DNA from: Betaproteobacteria bacterium HGW-Betaproteobacteria-20
GTDB taxonomy: Bacteria; Pseudomonadota; Gammaproteobacteria; Burkholderiales; Methylophilaceae
NCBI GenBank assembly: GCA_002842195.1
Contig: PHCL01000022.1
Coordinates: 1 to 10,197, forward strand
Direction of reading: 5' to 3'
DNA: 10,197 bases
In this document: piece after piece, positions 877 to 10,197 of the stretch
Layout of the letters: each line of letters opens with the position of its first letter
How positions within the stretch are numbered: position 1 is the first letter of the stretch
The notes under the pieces: generated by a model
Seen by the model: the letters and a program-made list of their open reading frames with translations, nothing else
What the model was told of the DNA's origin: nothing
Databases searched by the model: none
Translations under genes and position numbers: made by a program

Positions 877-2853
877 ATGTCAATTGAGTCAGTTCTACAT
901 GAAAACCGGATTTTTGAACCTAGCGCTGCGTTTGTAAAATCAGCCAATGTCTCTGGCATGGCGGCATACAACGCGCTATGTGCCGAGGCTGCCGCCGACT
1001 ACGAGGGCTTCTGGGCAAGGTTAGCACGCGAACTTTTAGTGTGGCATAAACCCTTCAGCAAAATACTCAATGATGATAACGCACCTTTTTACAAGTGGTT
1101 TGAAGATGGTGAGCTGAATGTTTCTGTCAACTGCTTGGATAAACATCTAACCACCATTCCTGATAAAGTTGCCATTATTTTTGAAGCTGACGATGGCAGC
1201 GCTAAAACAGTCACTTACAAAGCACTTTACCATCAGGTATGCCAGTTTGCGAACGGCTTAAAAAAGCTTAATTTAGCAGTAGGCGCCAGAGTGATTATTT
1301 ATCTGCCGATGGGCATAGAAGCCGTTGTAGCCATGCAAGCCTGCGCACGGCTCGGTTTAACGCACTCGGTAGTATTTGGCGGCTTTTCTGCCAAAAGTCT
1401 GAACGAGCGCATTGTAGATGCAGGCGCAGAAGCGGTAATTACCGCCGACGGACAATTTCGCGGTGGCAGAACCATTCCGCTAAAAATCGCCGTGGATGAC
1501 GGCATTGCGCTGGGCGGTTGCCAAAGCATTAAAAAAGTAATTGTACTGAAAAAAACCGGGCAAGCCATTGCCATGAATCACAACGACATTTGGTGGCACG
1601 ACCTCACAACAGGCGTCGCTGACACCTGCGAACCTGTGATGGTGAACGCCGAACATCCGCTATTTTTGCTTTACACTTCGGGTAGCACGGGCAAACCAAA
1701 AGGTGTACAGCATTCATCCGCCGGCTATCTGCTACACGCCATGAACAGCACGCGCTGGACATTCGACATTCATCCGGACGACATATTCTGGTGTACTGCA
1801 GATGTAGGCTGGATTACCGGCCACTCTTATGTGGCTTACGGCCCGCTCGCCATGGGCGCAACGCAGGTAGTGTTTGAAGGCGTCCCCACTTATCCGGATG
1901 CCAGCCGTTTTTGGCAGATGATAGCCAAGCATAAAGTGACTATTTTTTACACCGCACCCACGGCCATTAGAGCGCTCATTAAAGCTGCTGAAACCACACC
2001 CGCCACGCACCCGAAAAATTACGATTTATCCAGCCTGCGATTATTAGGCTCGGTAGGTGAGCCTATCAACCCCGAAGCGTGGATGTGGTATTTCGAGAAT
2101 GTTGGCAGTGGTCAATGTCCGATCGTAGATACCTTTTGGCAAACAGAAACGGGCGGCCATGTCATCACACCGCTACCCGGTGCTACAGCGCTGGTGCCCG
2201 GCTCTTGCGGGCTGCCGTTTCCAGGCATTGATATAGACGTAGTAGATGAAACAGGCAAAGAAGTGCCCTGGGGTACAGGCGGATTATTGGTCATTAAAAA
2301 ACCCTGGCCTTCAATGATACGTAACATCTACAACGACCCTGAACGCTATAAAACCAGTTATTATCCGGCAGATTTAGGCGGCAAAATTTACCTTGCGGGC
2401 GATGGCGCAGTGCGCGATGCCAAAACGGGCAACTTCACCATTATGGGCAGAATCGACGACGTGCTGAATGTATCAGGGCACCGCTTGGGCACCATGGAAA
2501 TTGAATCCGCGTTAGTGTCAAACCCATTGGTCGCAGAAGCCGCCGTAGTTGGCAAGCCACACGACATTAAAGGCGAATCAGTGGTCGCCTACGTGGTGCT
2601 GAAAGGTGCGCGCCCGACAGGTGAAGAAGCCAAAAAAATCGTCGCCAATTTACGTGACTGGGTAGGCAAAGAAATCGGCCCAATCGCCAAACCGGATGAA
2701 ATCCGTTTTGGTGACAACCTGCCCAAAACCCGTTCCGGCAAGATTATGCGCAGATTATTGCGTAGCCTGGCCAAAGGTGAAGCAATCACGGCGGATATTT
2801 CCACCCTGGAAAACCCAGCCATTCTGGAACAACTGAAAGAGGTGGTGAAGTAA
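877..2853 (+). CDS. acs: Acetyl-CoA synthetase (AMP-forming)
   Basis: Acs converts acetate, ATP and CoA into acetyl-CoA, AMP and pyrophosphate in the cytoplasm. The 658 residues match the usual length of about 650. An ACAS N-terminal region ([10 protein letters not shown], near residue 45) precedes the adenylation core with P-loop [11 protein letters not shown] at 266-276. [10 protein letters not shown] follows; its W421 corresponds to the tryptophan that limits the acyl pocket to acetate in characterised Acs enzymes, which favours acetate over propionate. SGHRLGT is at 533-539. PKTRSGK ends in K622, the catalytic lysine that is reversibly acetylated in this family. GAGGGG nine bases before the ATG is a good ribosome site and supports this start. 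The gene is monocistronic by appearance and ends before a REP-rich gap facing convergent cbpM. Propionyl-CoA synthetase was considered and is less likely. Confidence 0.95.
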
Positions 2854-2892: not shown

Positions 2893-3044
2893 TTCAGCAA
2901 ACGTAGCCTTGATGAAGTGTATCAGAAAAACTGATAAGCACTACTTAGCCAGTAAAACTGGCAAGTATTGCTAAATGGAATCGAGGGATTGCAGGCCTCA
3001 TTTATTCTCGATTCCACTGCGTTACATTGAGGCTACTTGCTGAA
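2893..3044. repeat. REP-like palindrome, copy 1 (interrupted)
   Basis: The outer arms are AGCAAACGTAGCC and GGCTACTTGCT, here extended to TTCAGCAA / TTGCTGAA. The inner arms carry GGAATCGAGG and TCTCGATTCC around a loop containing GATTGCAGGCCTCATTTA. It matches copy 2 almost throughout, except that after GATGAAGTGTA the left arm is broken by 55 bp (2922-2976) replacing two bases. The copy is decayed: CCTTGAT and ACATTGAGG replace the CCTCGAT and ACATCGAGG of better-preserved arms. Confidence 0.85.
2922..2976 (-). repeat. Double-hairpin insert, copy A
   Basis: This 55-bp segment interrupts REP-like copy 1. On the minus strand it holds two hairpins in order. The first is ACTTGCCAGT-TTT-ACTGGC-T-AAGT, whose stem can extend outward to AGCA/TGCT. 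The second is TATCAG-TTTTT-CTGATA, which uses one flanking base pair. The same two hairpins, in the same order and nearly the same sequence, occur at 8320-8369. No ORF is present, so it would be non-autonomous if mobile. Confidence 0.75.
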
Positions 3045-3141
3045 AGAGCAAACGTAGCCTTGATGAAGTGTAACGGAATCGAGGGATTGCAGGCCTCATT
3101 TACCCTCGATTCCACTGCGTTACATCGAGGCTACTTGCTCT
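3045..3141. repeat. REP-like palindrome, copy 2 (intact)
   Basis: This 97-bp element has outer arms AGAGCAA and TTGCTCT, then GTAGCCTTGATG facing CATCGAGGCTAC, and GGAATCGAGGG facing CCCTCGATTCC. The two middle segments (AAGTGTAAC and ACTGCGTTA) do not pair well with each other. Each half can instead fold alone: in the right half CCTCGAT and ATCGAGG enclose 13 bases. It is therefore built like two head-to-head REP units. It directly abuts copy 1 and shares its loop, suggesting tandem duplication. Confidence 0.88.
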
Positions 3142-7620: not shown

Positions 7621-8007
7621 CTATTTTTGGGCTGAATTTTGACGTAACCAACCCGCAAAATCAGCTTCATCAATATCGCCAGCTGCAACCGCGAGCATGG
7701 TTAAAGTTGCGTCTACCTGTGTAGCTTTTAGTTTATATCCGTTCAACCCTAAAAACACACCTATAGAAAGAAATGCCACACGTTTATTACCATCGACAAA
7801 AGCATGATTTTTAGCAAGTCCAAGCCCGTATGCCGCAGCTAAGTCTGCATAATCAGGATTACCGTACATTGCTAGATTTGGCGCACGATTTAATGCGGAA
7901 TCCAATAAACCCTCATCACGCACGCCCGATGCGCCGCCATGAGCAACCAAGCTCTCATCATGCAGCATAATTAAAAGCTGCTTATCTATCCAGCGCCACT
8001 GAGTCAT
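7621..8007 (-). CDS. doc: Doc (death-on-curing) family toxin of a type II toxin-antitoxin pair
   Basis: Doc proteins are Fic-fold toxins; phage P1 Doc phosphorylates EF-Tu and halts translation. The 128 residues match P1 Doc (126). The active-site loop HAFVDGNKR is at 68-76, with H68, D72, K75 and R76. Lysine at the position where Fic AMP-transferases have the second glycine of HxFxxGNGR marks it as Doc-like rather than an AMPylator. The start (M-T-Q-W-R-W-I-D) lies 18 bp after the antitoxin stop, with GAGAG about 12 bases upstream, so antitoxin comes first in the operon. Inverted bases CCCAAAAA/TTTTTGGG (7554-7561 and 7624-7631) flank its 3' end but are too far apart to be a clear terminator. 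The actual target was not determined. Confidence 0.9.
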   Translation of the reverse strand: MTQWRWIDKQLLIMLHDESLVAHGGASGVRDEGLLDSALNRAPNLAMYGNPDYADLAAAYGLGLAKNHAFVDGNKRVAFLSIGVFLGLNGYKLKATQVDATLTMLAVAAGDIDEADFAGWLRQNSAQK

Positions 8008-8025: not shown

Positions 8026-8250
8026 TTACTTTGCCAACTCGTTAAAAGTATCGCGATACTCTCGCATAAATTCACGACCAATCTCAAGCTGTTCTTTAAA
8101 ATTAGGATTATGTGGCGTAATGGTTGCTGCGCCCGGCGCATCAGTTAAAAACACGGTATCGCCTTTTTCTAATTTAAGGCGTGCCAGCACTTCTTTAGGC
8201 AAAATCAGACCTACCGAATTGCCTATTTGAGTTAATTTTAAAGTGTGCAT
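8026..8250 (-). CDS. AbrB/MazE/SpoVT-type antitoxin
   Basis: The 74 residues open with LKLTQIGNSVGLILPKEVLA and LKLEKGDTVFL, the classic swapped-hairpin SpoVT-AbrB DNA-binding domain (residues about 3-40). The C-terminal tail (FKEQLEIGREFMREYRDTFN) is charged, helical and likely to bind and neutralise the toxin. The pairing with Doc is notable because P1 Doc is neutralised by Phd, which has a different fold. GAGG eight bases before the ATG is the ribosome site. The promoter overlaps a perfect palindrome, as expected for autoregulation. There is no sign of truncation. Confidence 0.88.
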   Translation of the reverse strand: MHTLKLTQIGNSVGLILPKEVLARLKLEKGDTVFLTDAPGAATITPHNPNFKEQLEIGREFMREYRDTFNELAK

Positions 8251-8301: not shown

Positions 8302-8448
8302 GTAGGAGTGCAATTTATTAACAGCACTTGCCAGTTTACTGGCTTAGTGTTGGTTATCAGTTTTCTCTGATTGTGCGAAAGAAACTGGTGAGAGTGAATC
8401 TGGTGGAATTAGATCAGGTGATCTTCGCGCAATAAATTGCGCTCCTAC
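8302..8448. repeat. MITE-like element with 18-bp terminal inverted repeats
   Basis: GTAGGAGTGCAATTTATT (8302-8319) and AATAAATTGCGCTCCTAC (8431-8448) are inverted repeats with 17 of 18 positions matching. The 147 bp between the antitoxin promoter and the intI 3' end hold no ORF. The right end is itself a hairpin, GCGCAAT-AA-ATTGCGC (8427-8442), so each end may be a separate palindromic repeat of the GTAGGAGCGCAATTTATTGC type. No convincing target-site duplication flanks it. Confidence 0.6.
8320..8369 (+). repeat. Double-hairpin insert, copy B
   Basis: GCCAGT-TT-ACTGGC then ATCAG-TTTTCT-CTGAT (the last two stem bases reach into the flank) are the same two hairpins, in the same order, as copy A at 2922-2976 read on the minus strand. 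ATT borders it on both sides (8317-8319, 8370-8372). Removing it and one ATT joins GTAGGAGTGCAATTTATT to GTGCGAAAG, which resembles the uninterrupted repeat at the right end (GTAGGAGCGCAATTTATT then GCGCGAAG). Confidence 0.7.
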
Positions 8449-8457
8449 CCTAACCTA

Positions 8458-9441
8458 TCACAACACATCCAGCGGGCTACTTACACCCCGCCCACCCTTA
8501 TTCAAAACATGCGTATATATCATGGTAGTGCTTACGTCACTATGGCCTAACAACTCCTGAACTGTGCGGATATCATAACCACCCTCTAGCAAATGCGTAG
8601 CAAAACTATGGCGAAGCGTGTGTGGCGTTGCCAACTTGGTAATACCGCTCAAATTAACCGCTTTTTTAACCGCACGTTGCACCGTTTTTTCATCTGCATG
8701 ATGACGCCGCACCTTATTAGAACGTGGATCAACCGATAACTTAATGAACGGAAACACATACTGCCAAGCCCATGCCTTACCACCACTGGGGTATTTTCTA
8801 TCTAACGCCATTGGCATAAACACATCGCCATAGCCAGCGCTTAAATCTTCATTATGCAAAGCCTGCACTTTTAATAAATGCTGTTTTAACGGCTCAACTA
8901 AACTAACAGGCAACATCGTTACCCTATCTTTAAAGCCTTTACCTTCGCGCACCAAAATCTCACGTCGCGCTAAATCCACATCTTTAACACGCAATCGCAA
9001 GCACTCCATTACCCGCAAACCACTACCATAAAGCAAACTGGCAATAAGCCACATAGTGCCATCCAAACGGTTAAGCATTGCCTGAACCTCTTCTTTTGTC
9101 AGCACAACTGGCATACGTTTTGACACTTTCGCCTGTGTGACATTATCTAACCAAGGCAACTCAATACCCAACACCTCTTTGTACAAAAATAACAAAGCAC
9201 TTTTGGCTTGATTTTGTGTGCTTGCCGAAACATTACGTGAAACTGCTAAAAAACTTAAAAAACCCTCAACTTGCTCCGAGCTCATTTCTTTAGGGTGACG
9301 CTTGCCATGATACAAAATATAGCGTTTAATCCAGTCTACATAGGCCTGTTCTGTACGACGGCTATAATGTTTAACCCGAATACGCGCCACCACTTGATCC
9401 AATAGTTTTGGCTCGGCATTTGCTACAGGTGTGTTTGTCAT
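8458..9441 (-). CDS. intI: Integron integrase (IntI-type tyrosine recombinase)
   Basis: IntI recombines attI with folded single-stranded attC sites to capture and shuffle gene cassettes. The 327 residues (IntI1 has 337) carry an N-terminal SAM-like core-binding domain (about 13-100). The catalytic set is R143 ([13 protein letters not shown]), K171, H274 and R277 ([14 protein letters not shown]), H300 ([10 protein letters not shown]) and nucleophile Y309. The extra region unique to integron integrases lies at about 204-250: [20 protein letters not shown] and [11 protein letters not shown], which separates it from XerC/XerD. The C-terminus GVSSPLDVL is typical. AGGTGA seven bases before the ATG supports the start. 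It faces away from the cassettes, as is standard. It appears intact, so cassette capture may still occur. Confidence 0.96.
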
Positions 9442-10073: not shown

Positions 10074-10197
10074 ATGAACCGCTTACTAATTACTTTATTA
10101 GCAAGCGTAGCCTCGATGAAGTGTAACGGAATCGAGGATTTCTATCTGACAACAATCCTCGATTCCACTGCATTACATCGAGGCTACTTGCTTATAT
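10074..10197 (+). CDS. Start of the cassette 2 ORF, invaded by a REP-like palindrome (cut by window edge)
   Basis: The ATG has AAGGGA eight bases upstream and lies 44 bp after the cassette 2 boundary (10029/10030), a typical position. It encodes M-N-R-L-L-I-T-L-L-A, the look of a signal peptide. From the next codons the reading frame runs through the REP-like palindrome (10100-10192) without a stop, giving residues such as SMKCNGIEDFYL and DSTALHRGYLL that are simply the translated repeat. The frame is open to the window end. Either the repeat inserted in frame into a secreted protein's gene, or the true coding sequence is disrupted. No function can be given. Confidence 0.5.
   Translation, partial: MNRLLITLLASVASMKCNGIEDFYLTTILDSTALHRGYLLI
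10100..10192. repeat. REP-like palindrome, copy 3
   Basis: The arms AGCAAGCGTAGCCTCGATG and CATCGAGGCTACTTGCT, then GGAATCGAGGATT and AATCCTCGATTCC, match copies 1 and 2. The loop (TCTATCTGACAAC) is unrelated to theirs. As in copy 2, the middle segments pair poorly across the element, and each half can fold alone (CCTCGAT...ATCGAGG). The arms are better preserved than in copies 1 and 2. Confidence 0.88.

Follow-up and report, generated by a model that had tools for sequence, protein, structure and literature searches.

REP and REPIN sequences, together with the RAYT enzymes (TnpAREP) associated with them, are among the closest described counterparts of the repeat reported here. They are very small, intergenic, hairpin-forming and gene-less, occur in many copies with empty sites, and consist of a single hairpin or an inverted pair, with a bulged stem and a short GTAG or CGTC tag 5' of the stem, at the hairpin foot. 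According to the accessible parts of the respective sources, TnpAREP recognises the tagged hairpin and cuts at CT, in one system also at CA (PMC8266576), and sequencing reads have shown REP doublets being excised (PMC3116915). REP dimers lying within palindromes are described, in the available part of a further source, from three organisms (GTAG-15 of A. variabilis, GTAG-23 of T. roseum and CGTC-1 of H. neapolitanus), each dimer being tied to one kind of palindrome (PMC3733652). Other comparable systems are IS200/IS605 elements and their non-autonomous derivatives, classical MITEs and integron cassettes. Cyanobacterial short dispersed repeats of 21-27 bp, reportedly described by Elhai and co-workers in 2008, are extremely short and mobile and can sit in other repeats; we know of no double hairpin among them. 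Double-hairpin elements of mitochondrial DNA are said to have been treated in work on Allomyces. The name itself is documented for mitochondrial DNA in the part of the source available (PMC2800124).

The element analysed here resembles each of these known systems in part and misses their defining features, and we rate it as very small, gene-less, hairpin-based mobile DNA, which is a known kind. It shares with REPs and REPINs all the general properties named above, including a bulged stem with a short tag on its 5' side, but it lacks a GTAG or CGTC tag at the hairpin foot, it is built of two unlike hairpins, and its copies beside Y1 genes interrupt other repeats. Like the REP dimers, it is a small hairpin repeat nested in other palindromes, whereas it enters several unrelated repeats, itself, and sites without an evident palindrome. 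With IS200/IS605 elements and their derivatives it has in common hairpins near both ends, the lack of a target duplication and some signs of one functional strand; it differs in being gene-less and about 53 bp long, with hairpins that reach its tips and no fixed 5' tetra- or pentanucleotide. Unlike a classical MITE, it has neither terminal inverted repeats nor a target duplication. The mitochondrial elements also have two hairpins and are potentially mobile, but they are mitochondrial, and the likeness noted here is one of form. A literature search, with most subscription papers beyond its coverage, found no Methylotenera element of such form.

Copies in the window and the structure of the unit

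The window, meaning the whole stretch of 10,197 nucleotides that was analysed, is the whole of contig 237 in a genome of 1.86 Mb that is 82% complete. It holds two copies of the double-hairpin element, each 53 bp long: copy A at 2922-2974 on the minus strand (covariance model match of 71.9 bits, E 7e-14) and copy B at 8318-8370 on the plus strand (78.7 bits, E 1.7e-15). Each match takes in one flank base, and the limits given here come from an empty paralogue for copy A and, for copy B, from empty REPs and an orthologous empty repeat pair in genome G031. The sequence-only reading had described two hairpin modules with shared order and spacing; both are present as described, with their limits refined to those just given. 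The pattern GCCAGT-N{1,8}-ACTGGC-N{4,18}-ATCAG has two matches in the window against a mean of 0 in 200 dinucleotide shuffles, and folding of the copy A and copy B stretches compared with shuffles gives z values of -6.3 and -5.8, respectively.

Both copies lie within other repeats. Copy A was proposed to break the left arm of a REP-like palindrome, here called copy 1 (2896-3041, direct repeats D1 and D2), and this is borne out by two further repeats that lack the element at the same point: the uninterrupted copy 2 (3047-3139), which is an empty paralogous site for copy A, and a third uninterrupted copy of the same palindrome at about 10101-10191 (limits by eye), of which the segment 10137-10107 was used as an empty site. 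The empty junction in copy 2 and in the third repeat reads CCTCGATTCCGT^TACAC on the minus strand. Copy B is likewise nested where it had been placed, in a GTAGGAG-type palindrome, and splits GTAGGAGTGCAATTTA^TTGTGCG in the first member of an inverted pair of GTAGGAG-type REPs at 8302-8448 (inverted repeat I1, with arms 8302-8319 and 8431-8448 that are 94% complementary). The two hosts had been called unrelated palindromes, which is true of their sequences but not of their kind, since a GTAG tag (GTAGCCTTGATG...) is present in the host repeats of copy A as well, which makes both hosts REP-type.

The unit can be written 5'-TTAGCA-(hairpin 1, imperfect and bulged in its outer stem)-CTTATCAG-short loop-CTGR-3', where the last letters are CTGA or CTGG. 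It is mostly 52-55 bp long with sharp ends, it carries no gene, and in the aligned copies its two unlike hairpins stand in constant order; its two ends, TTAGCA and CTGR, do not form an inverted repeat. The covariance model was built from a first alignment of 23 copies, in which the 5' start is TTAG or TTAA, and in a wider set of copies the TTAG start is dominant, with few variants.

Hairpin 1 is held by compensatory changes. In an alignment of 108 distinct rows, which was fitted to the covariance model and so leans towards it, pairing holds in 92% of cells, both partners have changed in 16 of 20 pairs, and covariation scores 0.272 compared with 0.123 for shuffles and at most 0.074 for slid partners. 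In the first alignment, whose copies had been picked by the invariant inner stem, 94% of cells are paired and double changes occur in 4 of 20 pairs. Cells with G.T outnumber those with A.C by 75 to 49 (p 0.02, indicative only because the rows are related), and this wobble excess hints modestly that folding takes place in the written strand.

Distribution, insertion sites and mobility

Searching with a loose pattern brought up a third copy in the source genome and matches in 12 of the 52 genomes of the genus, of which the matches in three (L008, L009 and L010) look unrelated when read. At E<=0.01 the covariance model matches 41 of 52 Methylotenera genomes, with 32 matches in G013 and as many in G021, 28 in G039, 17 in G010, 13 in G037 and 5 in the source genome; the proposed search of the genome and its relatives with the consensus thus returned many copies and not two only. 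With the 135 genomes of the family outside the genus as a control, the family-wide search at E<=0.001 matches 38 of 52 genomes within the genus and 3 of 135 others, and the matches outside the genus include one in G164 and weaker ones in G149 and G156. The element family is close to confined to Methylotenera. The 53-mer has no match in the plasmid and INPHARED phage collections, nor has the copy-A block among the plasmids. One pattern hit in an uncultured proteobacterium (L179) was dropped, as the covariance model did not confirm it.

For the analysis of insertion sites, 142 matched rows were reduced to 117 with recognisable ends and, after removal of 19 tandem or adjacent copies, to 98 single copies in 46 flank clusters. 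Five clusters (8 copies) of tandem or nested remnants were dropped by hand, leaving 41 clusters and 90 copies for base counts; 40 clusters and 88 copies had enough flank for hairpin tests. Insertion is exact and without target duplication, with an ambiguity of one base (a T common to element and target). Base -1 is A or T in 41 of 41 distinct sites and base +1 is T or C in 39 of 41; the target is W^Y. A conserved 5' target tetranucleotide is absent from these 41 sites, positions -2 to -6 being variable, though -2 is without C.

When the flanks are joined, they match uninterrupted repeats elsewhere. The GTAGGAG repeat is found empty in both orientations (GCGCAATTTA^TTGCGCG and GCGCAATAAA^TTGCGC), the host repeat of copy A as CCTCGATTCCGT^TACACTTC, another repeat as CTTAGAAAA^TCGGAG (CTTAGAAAA^TCGGAGTGCCC), and a CCCCGT^CGCGAA repeat with mismatches. 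Of 30 loci retrieved for the interval of copy B, which runs from an antitoxin start to the end of an integron integrase, 12 could be read, and 5 of these 12 contain the element. Orthologues of copy B are present in G000, G013, G038 and G039 (with a damaged right end in G039). G031 keeps the inverted repeat pair and lacks the element, so that the comparison with relatives did yield an orthologous empty site at copy B. At the same locus, G009 and G030 have degenerate repeats at most, and G019, G037, G041 and G044 have no clear repeat and no element. The copy-B orthologue at L202 (G040:C36:68612-69188) is itself broken in hairpin 1 by another palindrome-bearing sequence. At the locus of copy A, a pattern search of the 420 bases that follow acs in 29 relatives, with the first 300 read, showed neither the repeat block with the element nor a clean orthologous empty REP; G038 has part of a similar palindrome after acs, with no evident element.

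The element also occurs in a viral genome and inside its own copies. A Mu-like viral contig of 38 kb (IMGVR_UViG_3300016484_000559), so typed by profiles for Mu transposase, HU and GemA, carries a copy at L288:7105-7157, directly after the HU gene. Two phage relatives (GemA 78% identical), which are alike over the part read, have the matching intergenic sequence immediately after the HU gene and lack the element; the empty site is not base-exact, as the HU ends themselves differ, and a third relative was not informative. The phage copy may represent a vehicle between cells. Copies are found inside the hairpin-1 arm of other copies (L011 and L145, with similar composites at L140 and L146), in head-to-tail arrays with a 53-bp period (for example, G021:C9:316875-317086), in unrelated REP families, and inside repeats beside Y1 genes (G000:C364 and G039:C118). 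Most copies read in G013 (L218-L232) share a longer repeat and are not independent insertions. This longer dispersed repeat holds the element, the two seem to spread together, and a similar unit occurs once in G030 (L282).

Mobility is well supported. The many copies, the paralogous and orthologous empty sites, and the phage copy with element-free relatives uphold what had been proposed from the window, namely, a very small non-autonomous mobile element.

The accompanying claim that the element favours hairpin DNA fared less evenly. With perfect 6-bp arms and loops of <=20, a hairpin spans 7 of the 40 distinct sites, compared with 4.7% of the control positions within the same flanks (p 0.002), and by the same strict score it spans 15 of 88 copies against 5.9%. 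The signal is weaker at other settings: 3 of 40 distinct sites have a hairpin with 7-bp arms (p 0.07) and 7 of 40 with 5-bp arms and loops of <=15 (p 0.07), and a looser score gives p<=0.1 at 10 of 40 distinct sites (median 0.39, KS p 0.17, Fisher p 0.02), all of these p values being indicative only because the genomes are related. At the clearest junctions the element lies in the loop or exactly at the boundary of loop and 3' arm, as in GCGCAA-taaa^TTGCGC, GGTGTGCAAA-ttaaaccat^TTTGCACACC and GGCGTA-ttacgttgcactaa^TACGCC. A simple hairpin is missing at most distinct sites, so that the refuting case named beforehand, with most copies lying outside palindromes, applies in part; hairpins are favoured, not exclusive targets, and to that extent the claim is partly supported. 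GTAG or CTAC occurs within 45 nt of 14 of 41 distinct sites, which is probably near the chance level.

To test the genomic setting, forty regions of 20 kb, selected around matches in four genomes, were searched with the covariance model, and 50 matches merged into 47 sites. All 47 lie outside ORFs of at least 200 codons, and the written strand is the C-rich strand at 31 of 47 (p 0.04, indicative only because the genomes are related), a bias that weakly fits lagging-strand targeting. In eight genomes, one of them of another genus (G164), a copy lies 2 to 5 bases upstream of tRNA-Ser(GCT) (L043, L044, L046, L047, L102, L123, L187 and L278). The stems of these copies differ, mostly with compensation, and the copies reflect either one old insertion common to these genomes or a site that is hit repeatedly.

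Candidate movers and rival explanations

The sequence-only reading had supposed that a RAYT or IS200/IS605 enzyme moves the element and had named a Y1 transposase as something to be sought in the genome. Y1 transposase matches number 76 in all and occur in 30 of 52 genomes. Copy number correlates with Y1 number (rho 0.47, p 0.0005, indicative only, across 52 genomes and rho 0.53 in the 25 genomes that are at least 95% complete), and of the 9 genomes that have at least five element matches, 8 have a Y1 match, with kinship and genome size ignored in both comparisons. However, 15 of 41 carriers have no Y1 match, a count that slightly lowered our confidence in the full mechanism. G009, which is one contig, has no Y1 match yet has six element matches at E<=0.01 (four at E<=0.001), and four genomes have a Y1 match and no element match. 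The supposition gains from the correlation, loses from the carriers without a match and is not established; the transposase that was sought is present in many of the genomes, but no element with tnpA between its ends was found in the places read.

Of the 76 Y1 matches, 30 loci were scanned, and three of these carry the element, with four matches in total; half-element patterns added to the full copies one left-end-like (L074) and one right-end-like (L080) sequence. The element lies within about 1.3 kb of Y1 genes at G000:C269, G000:C364, G030:C6, G032:C14 and G039:C118. In the last of these (L126, 86300-89000), inverted element copies stand on both sides of a 123-aa Y1 gene, each flanking copy interrupts a repeat that is also found empty, and GTAG-tagged repeats are closer to the gene than the element copies are. 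We read the scores and lengths as placing most Y1 matches of G037 with the IS200 type, unlike those of G021, G010 and G039. At G010:C24 (L076), a 283-aa Y1 gene directly follows acs, the gene that precedes copy A in the window (877-2853).

A model of hairpin 1 alone, run on the 52 genomes, returned mostly known copies. Five places were read (G033, G017, G041, G042 and G030), and none has a transposase between element ends; as candidates for an autonomous parent bounded by hairpin 1 at one far end and hairpin 2 at the other they were rejected, being decayed, nested or composite copies. The extra weak hits of this search in G008, G012 and G013 lie outside the five places read. A DDE-type transposase gene (DUF772, DDE_Tnp_1) in G033 lies beyond the neighbouring tRNA genes, not between element ends.

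Because insertion leaves no duplication, the ends are hairpins, G.T cells are in excess, the written strand tends to be the C-rich one, and copy number goes with Y1 number, we infer a Y1 enzyme acting in trans as the most economical reading. On whether such an enzyme moves, in trans, a non-autonomous element that acts as a single strand, our judgement is evenly poised between acceptance and doubt. One strand, when single-stranded (for example, in the lagging-strand template), would fold into both hairpins. A Y1-type HUH enzyme, either a RAYT or an IS200/IS605-like TnpA, would recognise these hairpins in trans, cut at both element ends and join the strand into another exposed single strand. Repeats able to fold or loop out, REPs and the element's own copies among them, would often serve as targets, though not as the only ones.

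The element could instead be the cognate repeat of a divergent RAYT lineage, with TTAG as the tag in place of GTAG and a second hairpin added, which we consider unlikely though worth weighing. TTAG precedes an imperfect, bulged hairpin on the 5' side, the place that GTAG takes in REPs, the element is near Y1 genes at the five loci named above, with inverted copies flanking the gene in G039:C118, and, in the part of the source available, the role of the tag varies between TnpAREP systems, one of which cuts at CT and CA (PMC8266576). However, the copies at G000:C364, G030:C6, G032:C14 and G039:C118 each interrupt another repeat that is known empty elsewhere or closes up once the copy is removed, and the repeats nearer to the gene in G039:C118 are the GTAG-tagged ones. 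It is decidedly unlikely that the mover is another recombinase, such as a REP-targeting IS110-type enzyme or a novel one. IS elements that insert into REPs are known, as stated in the accessible part of one source (PMC1525189), and the lack of target duplication and the 15 of 41 carriers without a Y1 match would agree with such an enzyme, but a target of only W^Y within unrelated host repeats does not suggest sequence-guided targeting.

The integron integrase encoded in the window (TIGR02249, 478 bits) is full-length and lies beside copy B at 8458-9441 on the minus strand, next to a Doc-family toxin/antitoxin pair (7621-8007 and 8037-8250, minus strand) in the same direction. Integron integrases act on folded single strands, according to the part of the source available (PMC11641012), and this one might move the element as a minimal hairpin cassette. 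We regard that as very improbable, and the integrase was rejected as the mover on distribution: 30 of 52 genomes have an integrase above cut-off, G010 (98% complete, 17 element matches) is not among them, G002 and G004 have one and no element match, and copies against intI give rho 0.27 (p 0.06). Integron crossover takes place at G^TT, whereas base -1 is never G in the 41 sites, which further sets the element apart from an integron cassette.

A structured RNA or terminator-like motif that is fixed at its loci and not mobile would account for the strong covariation, the intergenic position of all 47 sites and the shared positions upstream of tRNA-Ser(GCT), but we give it almost no credence, as it is contradicted by filled and empty repeats, self-nesting and the phage copy, and the window has no Rfam match at gathering score; copies may nevertheless have acquired a function once they had inserted. 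Passive spread of copies inside larger repeats, as the common longer repeat of most copies read in G013 might suggest, is scarcely credible and is contradicted for most copies outside G013, where flanks differ up to the element ends and the 98 single copies form 46 flank clusters.

Meaning for small repeats in Methylotenera

We tentatively suggest, with more reserve than conviction, that the element may represent a distinct class among minimal mobile DNA: a 53-nt, gene-less, two-hairpin single-strand element that is moved in trans, lands in folded loops of other bacterial repeats or of its own copies, thereby layers small repeats, and can ride a Mu-like phage. If confirmed, it would be among the smallest mobile elements described in bacteria. 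Its sharp ends, two-letter target and natural empty sites would make what a single-strand transposition substrate needs testable with one 53-mer oligonucleotide. The nesting of small repeats in small repeats also bears on the growth of REP-rich intergenic regions.
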